Assembly (NCBI GenBank): GCA_903887485.1
Contig: CAISPV010000110.1
Location: forward strand, 62,001 to 126,000
Source of the DNA: an uncultured Desulfobulbaceae bacterium
Lineage (GTDB): Bacteria; Desulfobacterota; Desulfobulbia; Desulfobulbales; Desulfocapsaceae
DNA: 64,000 nucleotides
Reading direction: 5' to 3'
Positions 543-4,472 of this stretch are shown one piece after another. A program made the position numbers and the translations under genes. How positions within the stretch are numbered: the first letter of the stretch is position 1; each line of letters starts with the position of its first letter. The notes under the pieces are model-generated. The model was not told the origin of the DNA, did no database searches, and saw nothing but the letters and a program-made list of their open reading frames with translations.

Positions 543-1658
543 TCAGCCTTCAGCATCATTCAGGATCCACTCCTGAAACACCTGGTCAGCAAGGGGCAGA
601 ACCGTTAAAGTCTGTGTTTCTCTTCCCATGGTAACACGTACATTTCCCTCCGGGGAGCCATCTTTTATCTTTTTGCCGAAGCGCACCACCAGTGCTGCCG
701 CCAGTTGCAATGCCTCCCGCAATTGAGTGTCATGCTCATAACAGCTCACCGGTCGCTCCTGCGCCGTCCTTGGCGCCTGCGACACTGGGCCGTCCATGGC
801 CTGCGCCCGTCTAAGAATGGCAGTTGGGCCGGGACGCACCGGCATGGAGAGCACCGCGTCACCATCCTGGACCATGGTCAGCAACCGCGCGTTTTCCTGC
901 TCGTTGCGCCCCAGGATCAACCAGCCGCCGCCGGGCAGCAAAAACTGCCGGCCCGTAAGAAGCAGACGCACATCCGCCACCGTGATATCTTCGACACTAA
1001 CAATGGAATTTCCTTGATAGATGCGGGCAATCCGGGGGCTGAGATTAGGATCGGTCAGGATACAACCGCCGGCCGGGGTTGGAAAATCAACGATCCCCAG
1101 ATCTCTGGCGAGAGCAATCTGGCGGGAGCGGCCACGGCCATTCATATCCAGCAGTTTTTCCCGATCAATCCAGCCACGCGCCTCGGCCTCGGTCTCAGGG
1201 AGCAGTTTGGCCGACAGAGGGCGCAGCAGGAAACGATCAGCGCCGGAATCACGTTCGATGACCCGCAGGGTATCACGACGCTGCGACATGGGCCGCTGTC
1301 CCAGCACCTCACCGGTGACCAGAAAAGAGGCGCCCAAAGCGGCCATCATCTCCTGGGCCCGGACAAGCATGAGAATCTTGCAATCGATACAGGGATTAAA
1401 GTTCTTACCAAAACCATGCCGGGGATTATGGAGTAGTTCCAGATAGCCGCTGCTGAGGTCTTCAAGGAGCACCTCAATCCCATACTTTTTGAAGACCTCC
1501 TGCCGGTAGGCATCAGGAGCAGCCAGAAGCTCATAATCAAAGAAAGGGGTCACAAACTTGACGGCCACTACCCGGATGCCCTGCGCCGCCACCACCCGAC
1601 AGGCAAGGATCGAATCCAGACCGCCTGAAAAAAGGGCCAGGGCCGTTATCTGGGGCAC
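543..1658 (-). CDS. PP-loop (adenine nucleotide alpha hydrolase) protein, tRNA-thiolase-like
   Basis: 371 residues. The N-terminus has a PP-loop ATP-binding motif (SGGLDSILA, about residues 11-19). A CxxC pair (C90, C93, in NPCIDCK) and a further cysteine in PAGGCILTD (about C199) resemble the catalytic/persulfide cysteines of MnmA- and ThiI-like tRNA thiolases. The C-terminal 150 residues form a separate domain with no motif I recognise. Proteins of this layout are often annotated as tRNA thiouridylase-like in deltaproteobacteria; the substrate is not shown here. The start overlaps the end of recN by 13 bp, so the two are probably translationally coupled. Exact function is inferred. Confidence 0.75.
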   Translation of the reverse strand: MPQITALALFSGGLDSILACRVVAAQGIRVVAVKFVTPFFDYELLAAPDAYRQEVFKKYGIEVLLEDLSSGYLELLHNPRHGFGKNFNPCIDCKILMLVRAQEMMAALGASFLVTGEVLGQRPMSQRRDTLRVIERDSGADRFLLRPLSAKLLPETEAEARGWIDREKLLDMNGRGRSRQIALARDLGIVDFPTPAGGCILTDPNLSPRIARIYQGNSIVSVEDITVADVRLLLTGRQFLLPGGGWLILGRNEQENARLLTMVQDGDAVLSMPVRPGPTAILRRAQAMDGPVSQAPRTAQERPVSCYEHDTQLREALQLAAALVVRFGKKIKDGSPEGNVRVTMGRETQTLTVLPLADQVFQEWILNDAEG

Positions 1659-3382
1659 ACAGCCCCTTTTTCCTTTAGTCCAGCCTGTCCGCTCTTTCCC
1701 TTGGCCAGCAGTTCCTGAGCCCAGGCACGGGTCTGGGCTGAAACCGAGTCACCCGCCAGCATCCGCGCCAACTCATCCACCCTTTGTTCAGGGGCAAGCA
1801 GTGAAAAAGAAGAGTGGGTGCGGCCTTGCGCCATCTGTTTGGCCACCCGGAAATGGGTGTTTCCCCTGGCGGCAATCTGGGGCAGATGAGTGACACAGAA
1901 GACCTGATGATGACCGGCCAACTCCTGGATCTTGCGGGCCACCGCCTCGGCCGCCTCGCCGCCGATACCCGCATCCACCTCATCAAAGATAACGGTCTCG
2001 ACCATATCTTTTTTTGCCAGCAGACATTTGAACGCCAGCATCAACCGCGAGAGCTCACCGCCGGATGCGACCTTGGCCAGAGGTCTGGCCGCCTCCCCTG
2101 GGTTGGCCGAGAAAAAGAACTCCACCCGATCCCAGCCATTGTTTCGGACCATCTCAACACCCTGTTCCTGCCCTTGTTCATACCCCTGAAAACGAATCTC
2201 AAACCCTGAATGGCTAAAGGCAAGAGATGCCAGTTCCGCGGCCATGGCCTTTGTCACCTGCTCGGCCGTCTGACGCCGCCTGGCCGAAAGGGCGGCAACC
2301 TGGCGCAACAACTCCTGTTCCAGACCGGCTACCACCGCCTCCAGCTCACTCATCTTCTTGTCCATATTGTCAATGAGCTGGAGCTCACTCTCCGCCGCCA
2401 CCACATAAGCAAGCACCGCCTCCAGGGTCTCACCATATTTACGTTTCAGATGGTGCAGTCCGTTGAGACGCTCATTCACCTGCTCAAGACGGGCGGGATT
2501 ATGTTCGAGCGAATCCTTGTAACTCCGCAACTGACTGACAAAATCCTCGGCCTGATAACTGTAGGCGGTAATCTCGGCCGCCAGCCCTTCCACCTGGGCG
2601 TCCAGCTGCACCACCTGCTCCATATCCCGCCGCACCTCAAACAACCCGTCGACAAGGGTAGTAGAAAAGAAACGATACACCCTCTGACTGAGGGCAATCA
2701 GGGCATCCGCACTTTTCAGCCGCTTGCGCTCGGCCGCCAGCTCCTCATCCTCACCCACCATCGGCCCAACCTGCCGGATCTCGGCCAGCTGATACTGGAG
2801 GAAATCGCGCCGCTGCTCCTTATCCCGCTCCTGCTGACGGAGCAGAACAAGCTCATTCTTTTTCTGCTGCCATTGTCCAAAAACCGTGGCCACCTGCGCC
2901 CGTTCCTCCCAATGTTCACCCAGCGCATCAAGAAAGTCGAGATGCAGCGCCGGCTGCAACAACTGTTGATGATCATGCTGACTGGCGACATTAAGCAAAT
3001 TATCTGCCAGCAGAGAAACCATCTTTGCCGTTGCCAGGGAGCCATTCACATAGAGCCTGCTCTTGCCGCTACTGGTGAGCACCCGCTTGAGAATAACCGA
3101 TGTCTCATCGCCAAACCCCGATTCCTGCAAGGCCTGCAACAGATCCTGATGATTGGCATTCACCACAAAAAGCGCCTCCACCACACACTGATCCGCGCCA
3201 TTCCTGATCCAGTCCGCCTGCGCCCGACCACCCATGAGGAGATGAATGGCCCGCAGCATGATCGATTTCCCGGCGCCGGTCTCACCGGTCATCACCACCA
3301 GCCCCCCCCCCTCTTCCTGATCAAAATGGAGGTGCAGGGATTCAATTAAAGCAAGATTTTCAACCTTCAGTTCACACAGCAT
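1646..3382 (-). CDS. recN: DNA repair protein RecN
   Basis: 578 residues, close to the usual RecN length. It is an SMC-like ATPase acting in double-strand-break repair. Walker A is TGETGAGKS (about residues 32-40). The middle is long, charged and heptad-like, as in a coiled coil. Near the C-terminus are the ABC signature ASGGELSRLMLA and Walker B (TVIFDEVDAGIGG). The ATG at 3382 is preceded by a GGAAG purine tract. It is divergent from the DtxR-like gene at 3552 with a 169-bp shared upstream region, and is the first gene of a possible recN/PP-loop/mntP transcription unit. Confidence 0.95.
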   Translation of the reverse strand: MLCELKVENLALIESLHLHFDQEEGGGLVVMTGETGAGKSIMLRAIHLLMGGRAQADWIRNGADQCVVEALFVVNANHQDLLQALQESGFGDETSVILKRVLTSSGKSRLYVNGSLATAKMVSLLADNLLNVASQHDHQQLLQPALHLDFLDALGEHWEERAQVATVFGQWQQKKNELVLLRQQERDKEQRRDFLQYQLAEIRQVGPMVGEDEELAAERKRLKSADALIALSQRVYRFFSTTLVDGLFEVRRDMEQVVQLDAQVEGLAAEITAYSYQAEDFVSQLRSYKDSLEHNPARLEQVNERLNGLHHLKRKYGETLEAVLAYVVAAESELQLIDNMDKKMSELEAVVAGLEQELLRQVAALSARRRQTAEQVTKAMAAELASLAFSHSGFEIRFQGYEQGQEQGVEMVRNNGWDRVEFFFSANPGEAARPLAKVASGGELSRLMLAFKCLLAKKDMVETVIFDEVDAGIGGEAAEAVARKIQELAGHHQVFCVTHLPQIAARGNTHFRVAKQMAQGRTHSSFSLLAPEQRVDELARMLAGDSVSAQTRAWAQELLAKGKSGQAGLKEKGAVCPR

Positions 3383-3551: not shown

Positions 3552-4076
3552 ATGCCCAAAAAAAACACCCTCAGCGCCAGTCTTGAAGATTATCTGGAGG
3601 CAATCTACCATATCATTCAAGACAAGCATGTGGCCAGAAGTAAAGAGATCGCCGCCCGCCTGCAAGTCAGCCGCGCATCCGTCACCGAGGCCCTACAGGC
3701 CCTAGCCAAGAGAGAGCTCATCAACTACGCCCCCTATGAGGCCATCACCATGACCGCAAAGGGGGAAAAAGCGGCAGAAAGTGTCATCTTTCGCCACGAC
3801 GCCCTGAAACAATTTTTCATTGAGGTCCTGGCCGTTGACCACAGTGTGGCCGAAGAAGGCGCCTGCCGGGTAGAACATGCCGCCCCGCCGGAGGTCATCG
3901 CCCAGATGATCTCCTTTATCGAATTTCTCAAGATCTGCCCGCGCGGCGGCAGCGAACTACTCCAAGGCTTTGCAGACTACTGCAAGCAGGGCAAGACCAG
4001 AGACAACTGCGATGCTTGCATGTCAAGTTGTCTTGTTGCTCAAGGGCCCGAAGGACAGGGAACAGGAGACAGGTAA
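3552..4076 (+). CDS. DtxR/MntR-family metal-dependent transcriptional regulator
   Basis: 174 residues. The N-terminal winged helix-turn-helix (about residues 8-65, with SLEDYLEAIYHII and RSKEIAARLQVSRASVTEAL) is typical of DtxR/MntR proteins. The following dimerisation/metal-binding part keeps HAAPPEVIAQM-like residues and ends in a Cys-rich tail (CDACMSSC) unusual for MntR, possibly an extra metal site. Family members repress iron or manganese genes when metal-bound. The start lacks a clear Shine-Dalgarno sequence. The palindrome over the promoter suggests autoregulation, and the nearby mntP makes manganese a plausible signal, though iron cannot be excluded. Confidence 0.85.
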   Translation: MPKKNTLSASLEDYLEAIYHIIQDKHVARSKEIAARLQVSRASVTEALQALAKRELINYAPYEAITMTAKGEKAAESVIFRHDALKQFFIEVLAVDHSVAEEGACRVEHAAPPEVIAQMISFIEFLKICPRGGSELLQGFADYCKQGKTRDNCDACMSSCLVAQGPEGQGTGDR

Positions 4077-4116: not shown

Positions 4117-4332
4117 CTACCGCAACAAACCGGCAATCTCCCCCTCTTCAGGAAAACGCTTCAGCTCCTTCTTGGAAAACACAATCTTGCCGTCAACGGT
4201 GATCTCAAACACCCCACCGGTGGAAGGAAGCAACTCCACCTCCGCGCCAAATGCGTTTTTCAACTCCTCTTCCAACCTGGAAGCACGAGGTAAATAGTTT
4301 CACTTTGTACAATATTCAATTGTGATCTTCAT
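4117..4332 (-). CDS. SelW/Rdx-family selenoprotein with in-frame UGA (Sec) codon
   Basis: The minus strand from the ATG at 4332 to the TAG at 4117 reads 71 residues if the TGA at 4300-4302 is decoded as selenocysteine. The start gives MKITIEYCTKU: a CxxU redox motif at residues 8-11, exactly where SelW/SelT/SelH-type Rdx proteins carry it. The C-terminal half (TGGVFEITVDGKIVFSKKE) also matches that thioredoxin-fold family, small redox proteins of unsettled substrate. AAAGGAG lies 5 nt before the ATG. A stem-loop starts 16 nt after the UGA and fits a bacterial SECIS. Standard gene callers would miss or truncate this gene. It converges with the DtxR-like gene, 40 bp apart. Confidence 0.88.
4269..4283 (-). 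promoter_or_regulatory. Bacterial SECIS stem-loop of the selW-like gene
   Basis: On the mRNA strand CTTCC-AGGTT-GGAAG forms a 5-bp stem with a 5-nt loop containing GGU. A lower CCT/AGG pairing sits below a bulge. The stem begins 16 nt 3' of the UGA, within the spacing known for SelB-bound bacterial SECIS elements, and the GGU loop resembles that of Escherichia coli fdhF. Confidence 0.7.
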
Positions 4333-4472
4333 GGGTTCTCCTTTAGAAAAAAACAACCTTTTCAACTTTTGAAAATAAATTTACAATTCACATCCGTCAT
4401 TACCAAGCTGCCATAAACAAAAGATATACTCAAAAGGACGTGCAGTTAATTCACGTTCCTTCAATAGATTAA

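Follow-up and report, generated by a model that had tools for sequence, protein, structure and literature searches.

Bacterial SelW-like selenoproteins have been reported in the Sargasso Sea data set, and the SelW family was described there as having redox activity or interacting with glutathione (PMC1088965). SelW-like proteins are among the commonest marine selenoproteins in the GOS data (PMC2398784), one is listed for the related organism Desulfotalea psychrophila (PMC1794560), and the family is counted among those predicted with high confidence (PMC13188914). For Campylobacter jejuni selW, read-through of the UGA codon was demonstrated by Ribo-seq together with proteomics/mass spectrometry (PMC11955535). 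The hallmark of a bacterial SECIS element is a small apical loop with a conserved G in a hairpin located just after the UGA (PMC1088965). Genes of the selW type have been wholly overlooked in genome annotations (PMC4607533).

Here we analysed a 64,000-nucleotide stretch of DNA (the window) from an uncultured Desulfobulbaceae bacterium, contig CAISPV010000110.1, and followed up a candidate gene of this family. With a probability of about 0.97, the locus is a SelW-like (Rdx) selenoprotein gene in which UGA codon 11 is decoded as selenocysteine (Sec) via a SECIS element, giving a thioredoxin-like product. A first-pass annotation had arrived at the same interpretation, which is supported because the UGA is conserved, the hairpin covaries, the Sec machinery is present and the modelled product has the SelW fold. 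Its description of the selenoprotein as "hidden" is nevertheless overstated, since the SelW-like family is already well known, and the gene in the window is an ordinary further case of a bacterial selenoprotein family published since 2005.

The frame begins with an ATG at 4332-4330, passes the TGA at 4302-4300 and ends with a TAG at 4119-4117. With the TGA read as Sec, the product is MKITIEYCTKUNYLPRASRLEEELKNAFGAEVELLPSTGGVFEITVDGKIVFSKKELKRFPEEGEIAGLLR. The 71-residue frame with an in-frame TGA is thus borne out by the sequence, on the minus strand, which the earlier description had left unstated, and the ribosome-binding site assigned to it is found ahead of the ATG, with comparable purine stretches preceding the selW start in many relatives (Table 1). 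A promoter and terminator scan around selW found no terminator-like site and nothing decisive. When the window was scanned for further CxxU, UxxC or CU frames with TGA read through, a second convincing selenoprotein was not found.

Table 1. Coordinates in the window of the selW-like gene, its signals and its conserved neighbours
Feature	Position	Strand	Remarks
selW-like selenoprotein gene	4117..4332	-	71 aa, Sec = residue 11, TAG stop included
In-frame TGA, codon 11, read as selenocysteine (CTKU; CxxU redox motif)	4300..4302	-	Conserved in relatives
Ribosome-binding site AAAGGAG	4338..4344	-	5 nt upstream of ATG; from the sequence
Bacterial SECIS hairpin, 6 pairs, 3-nt GGU apical loop	4269..4283, loop 4277-4275	-	Covariation, invariant loop G
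Convergent DtxR/MntR-type metal-dependent regulator, conserved neighbour	3552..4076	+	Fe_dep_repress, Fe_dep_repr_C; next to selW in 46 loci
recN, conserved neighbour, same strand as selW	1646..3382	-	TIGR00634 above cut-off; 52 loci

The SelW-like identity of the product is secured by three family models, all of which score above their cut-offs: Pfam PF10262 (Rdx; 84.2 bits against a cut-off of 22.6, E=7.5e-24), NCBIfam NF041051 ("SelT/SelW/SelH family (seleno)protein"; 109.6 bits against 88, E=6.4e-32) and TIGR02174 (68.4 bits against 34.2). An AlphaFold model computed with no template from an alignment of 35 sequences reached a mean pLDDT of 93 and places the CxxU motif C8-T-K-U11 after the first strand (strand 2-8, helix 14-28). 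The best PDB match of this predicted model is the SelW-related protein 2fa8 (TM 0.93, rmsd 1.0), and the TM-score against mouse SelW (2npb) is 0.70, so that the model displays the thioredoxin-like SelW fold.

Compared with the bacterial SelW-like/SELENOW-like selenoproteins (PF10262, NF041051), the gene in the window shares length, CxxU motif, UGA position, a hairpin directly after the UGA and the thioredoxin-like fold, and there is no essential difference; the middle residues of its motif are TK. C. jejuni SelW (CJnc60) likewise contains a UGA and was compared via NF041051 (SelTWH_Campy), which scores the window protein above the cut-off, but it comprises approximately 80 aa instead of 71 and belongs to a different phylum. 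Agrobacterium Atu0228 (PDB 2fa8) is a Cys-containing Rdx protein of the same fold whose CTQC aligns with the CTKU described here; proteins of this type carry Cys where the window gene has Sec, and the Cys genes sampled mostly do not have the SECIS stem. The proposal that CTKU occupies the redox position of the family and that Cys homologues align at U therefore agrees with the data, as Cys homologues carry Cys at this position, including the solved SelW-related structures 2fa8 and 3dex.

To follow the UGA codon among relatives, 84,980 species genomes were scanned with peptide patterns that skip the Sec position, and the 80 best relatives, with 49-93% identity to the window protein, were taken. 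These come chiefly from Desulfobulbales metagenome-assembled genomes, and others are labelled Gemmatimonadetes, Marinimicrobia, Verrucomicrobia, Campylobacteraceae, Krumholzibacteriota and further groups. In every one of the 80 this codon is TGA and the frame continues beyond it; none ends there, an outcome that would have counted against the Sec reading. Within the taxonomic family of the window organism, selW was found in 51 of 60 genomes, each full-length match having one in-frame TGA, while one genome has selW as two fragments only (G015). The protein match combined with the comparative evidence puts the observation far beyond chance. Five genomes were sampled from one genus of the family (g4), and selW was found in none of them; four keep selA (G003, G020, G033 and G042) while the fifth (G048) has neither gene. 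A lineage-specific loss is probable.

These comparisons bear directly on two other ways of reading the frame. Were the TGA a true stop, the frame would have to be either a Cys gene in decay or the result of a sequencing error, and it would be hard to see the same TGA in relatives ranging from 49 to 93% identity, with the protein conserved on both sides of it and the hairpin conserved as well; nothing was found to favour this explanation, and we regard it as extremely improbable. Just as improbable is a restart after the TGA, in which the real product would be the 52-aa frame from TTG 4275. Such a frame exists mechanically, and the automatic annotation of a Thermomicrobium relative proceeds in this way, yet the resulting protein would have neither strand 1 nor the CxxU motif and would keep the first helix only in part. 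Moreover, the residues MKITIEYC preceding the TGA rank with the most strongly conserved ones, M1, I5 and C8 showing no variation, and the ribosome-binding site precedes the ATG at 4332. Decoding of the TGA as Sec within one 71-residue frame remains the preferred reading, and with it the annotation is corrected from nothing, or from a headless 52-aa fragment, to a real selenoprotein of 71 aa. The expectation that automatic annotation misses such a gene or calls only the part after the UGA holds for Thermomicrobium roseum, where the annotated selW CDS begins 30 nt past the TGA, and for the published cases (PMC4607533), but it needs to be restricted, as the NCBI model NF041051 now exists. The UGA-selW of T. 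roseum sits on the megaplasmid NC_011961.1, and that of Cytobacillus spongiae on a 690-kb replicon (NZ_CP089998.1) that also carries selB.

The hairpin CUUCCA-GGU-UGGAAG (4283-4269) begins 16 nt past the UGA, in agreement with the position and loop first described, and its reading as a SECIS element is backed by covariation. Taken on its own, the hairpin is unremarkable: it has a z-score of -1.2 for folding and is matched in stability by 24 of 200 shuffles, and an equally good hairpin follows 76 of the 2546 TGAs in the window (approximately 3%), so that single-sequence folding is not the main evidence. This modest z-score, along with the fact that several stem positions are set by the conserved A-S/A-x-L-E residues, would fit a hairpin imposed by constraint on the encoded protein and no SECIS at all. 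A covariation test of the six-pair stem over 30 diverse sequences with 500 shuffles speaks otherwise. Pairing holds in 96.1% of cells, compared with 82.9% after shuffling; double-change cells number 22, where the shuffles give 6.7; and the covariation score is 0.422, a value reached by none of the 500 shuffles, which give 0.168. The shuffle control ignores the relatedness of the sequences, which is accounted for by sliding the stem partner by 1-3 columns; pairing then amounted to at most 60.6% and the score to at most 0.136. RNAalifold gave the same stem unprompted, and the apical-loop G (column 26) is invariant. Compensatory changes at third codon positions count against a coding by-product: the pair 21-33, formed by two third positions, is UA in 36, CG in 27, GC in 6, AU in 2, GU in 2 and UG in 2 of 78 distinct sequences. 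In addition, Cys homologues mostly break the stem and differ in the loop, as seven on plasmids form 1, 1, 2, 2, 4, 4 and 3 of five pairs and hold a Trp codon in the loop, whereas two plasmid relatives with TGA form 5/5, and phage relatives with different stems still pair. A by-product of coding is hence very improbable, and the SECIS interpretation stands; the comparative set provides a clean SECIS element with covariation at third codon positions.

The machinery that Sec decoding implies, and that had been named as a check, is complete in the genome from which the window derives, with selA, selB, selD and selC, the tRNA-Sec (anticodon tca/UCA), all present. With this set the Desulfocapsa-like genome has the means of decoding UGA as Sec, and its other in-frame TGAs therefore need to be handled with care. 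The selD gene also codes for a selenoprotein, its own TGA lying in the active-site motif AAGUAAK. Four near-complete Sec-decoding relatives (G005, G013, G023 and G046) apparently lack selA while having selB and tRNA-Sec. A true loss of selA in these genomes was judged unlikely in view of the masking of the rRNA operon in other relatives and of contig breaks; because selA adjoins the rRNA operon in relatives of this family, many genomes lose it where a contig breaks or the sequence is masked, which gives the appearance of absence. The gaps are best explained as a masking or assembly artefact. In many draft genomes selA lies within a few hundred bases of a contig end, and in two single-contig relatives it adjoins an rRNA operon with long stretches masked as N.

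Computation shows that the gene is under selection for the UGA, the SECIS hairpin and the Rdx fold, and that the genome is able to decode UGA as Sec. From the machinery together with the published C. jejuni homologue, we infer that Sec insertion in the window organism would be SelB-dependent: the hairpin just past UGA codon 11 would bind SelB loaded with Sec-tRNA-Sec, the UGA would be decoded as selenocysteine, and translation would proceed to the TAG. The resulting protein of 71 residues would be thioredoxin-like, with Cys8-x-x-Sec11 in the loop that leads from strand 1 to helix 1. Judging by the CxxU motif and the family, it most likely acts as a thioredoxin-like selenol/thiol redox protein, which may reduce disulfides or other oxidised partners or relay electrons to them.

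Viral contigs in IMG/VR were also scanned, using a DNA pattern containing the TGA. This retrieved 18 contigs, to which one was added by protein, giving about 19 contigs with approximately 11 distinct proteins; a profile search of viral contigs that required Cys at the Sec position gave no match, nor did a search of deposited phages for selW. The viral hairpins form 5-6 of 6 pairs, and their stems show compensatory changes of their own (CTCTCA/TGAGAG, CTCTTA/TAAGAG, CCCTTA/TAAGGG and CTCGTA/TACGA). Several of the selW-bearing contigs carry T4-like phage genes, and beside selW on several are genes for gp32-like and RecA/UvsX-like proteins, baseplate wedge, ribonucleotide reductase and endonuclease VII. 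On the stretches of these contigs that were examined, tRNA-Sec was not found. It is rather likely that T4-like phages of marine origin possess a UGA/SECIS selW of their own, use the machinery of a Sec-decoding host and make selenoproteins during infection. Provided that these phage genes are genuine, phage gene repertoires would include selenoproteins, and infection would be tied to the selenium use of the host.

Phage-encoded selenoproteins seem to be undescribed in the accessible literature, in which our search found no report of one; most subscription papers lie outside it, and this absence is therefore no proof of novelty. Outside the RNR II, plastocyanin and Cu-Zn SOD families, few or no viral sequences were reported (PMC9402790), phages are unmentioned in PMC13188914, and the accessible part of PMC6145125 reports a phage tRNA-Sec and no phage selenoprotein.

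The order selW, convergent DtxR/MntR-type regulator, recN recurs in approximately 46 related loci, some of which are the same genomes counted twice. In some relatives where the regulator is missing, recN directly follows selW (e.g., loci L072, L109, L124 and L125). This order may be plain synteny, while a functional link of selW with the regulator and recN, in the response to metal or oxidative stress and in DNA repair, is conceivable. The gene adjoining recN, at 543-1658 on the minus strand, codes for a product that combines a ThiI-type domain with an NFACT-R_2 RNA-binding domain at its C-terminus and may be an enzyme that transfers sulfur to tRNA.
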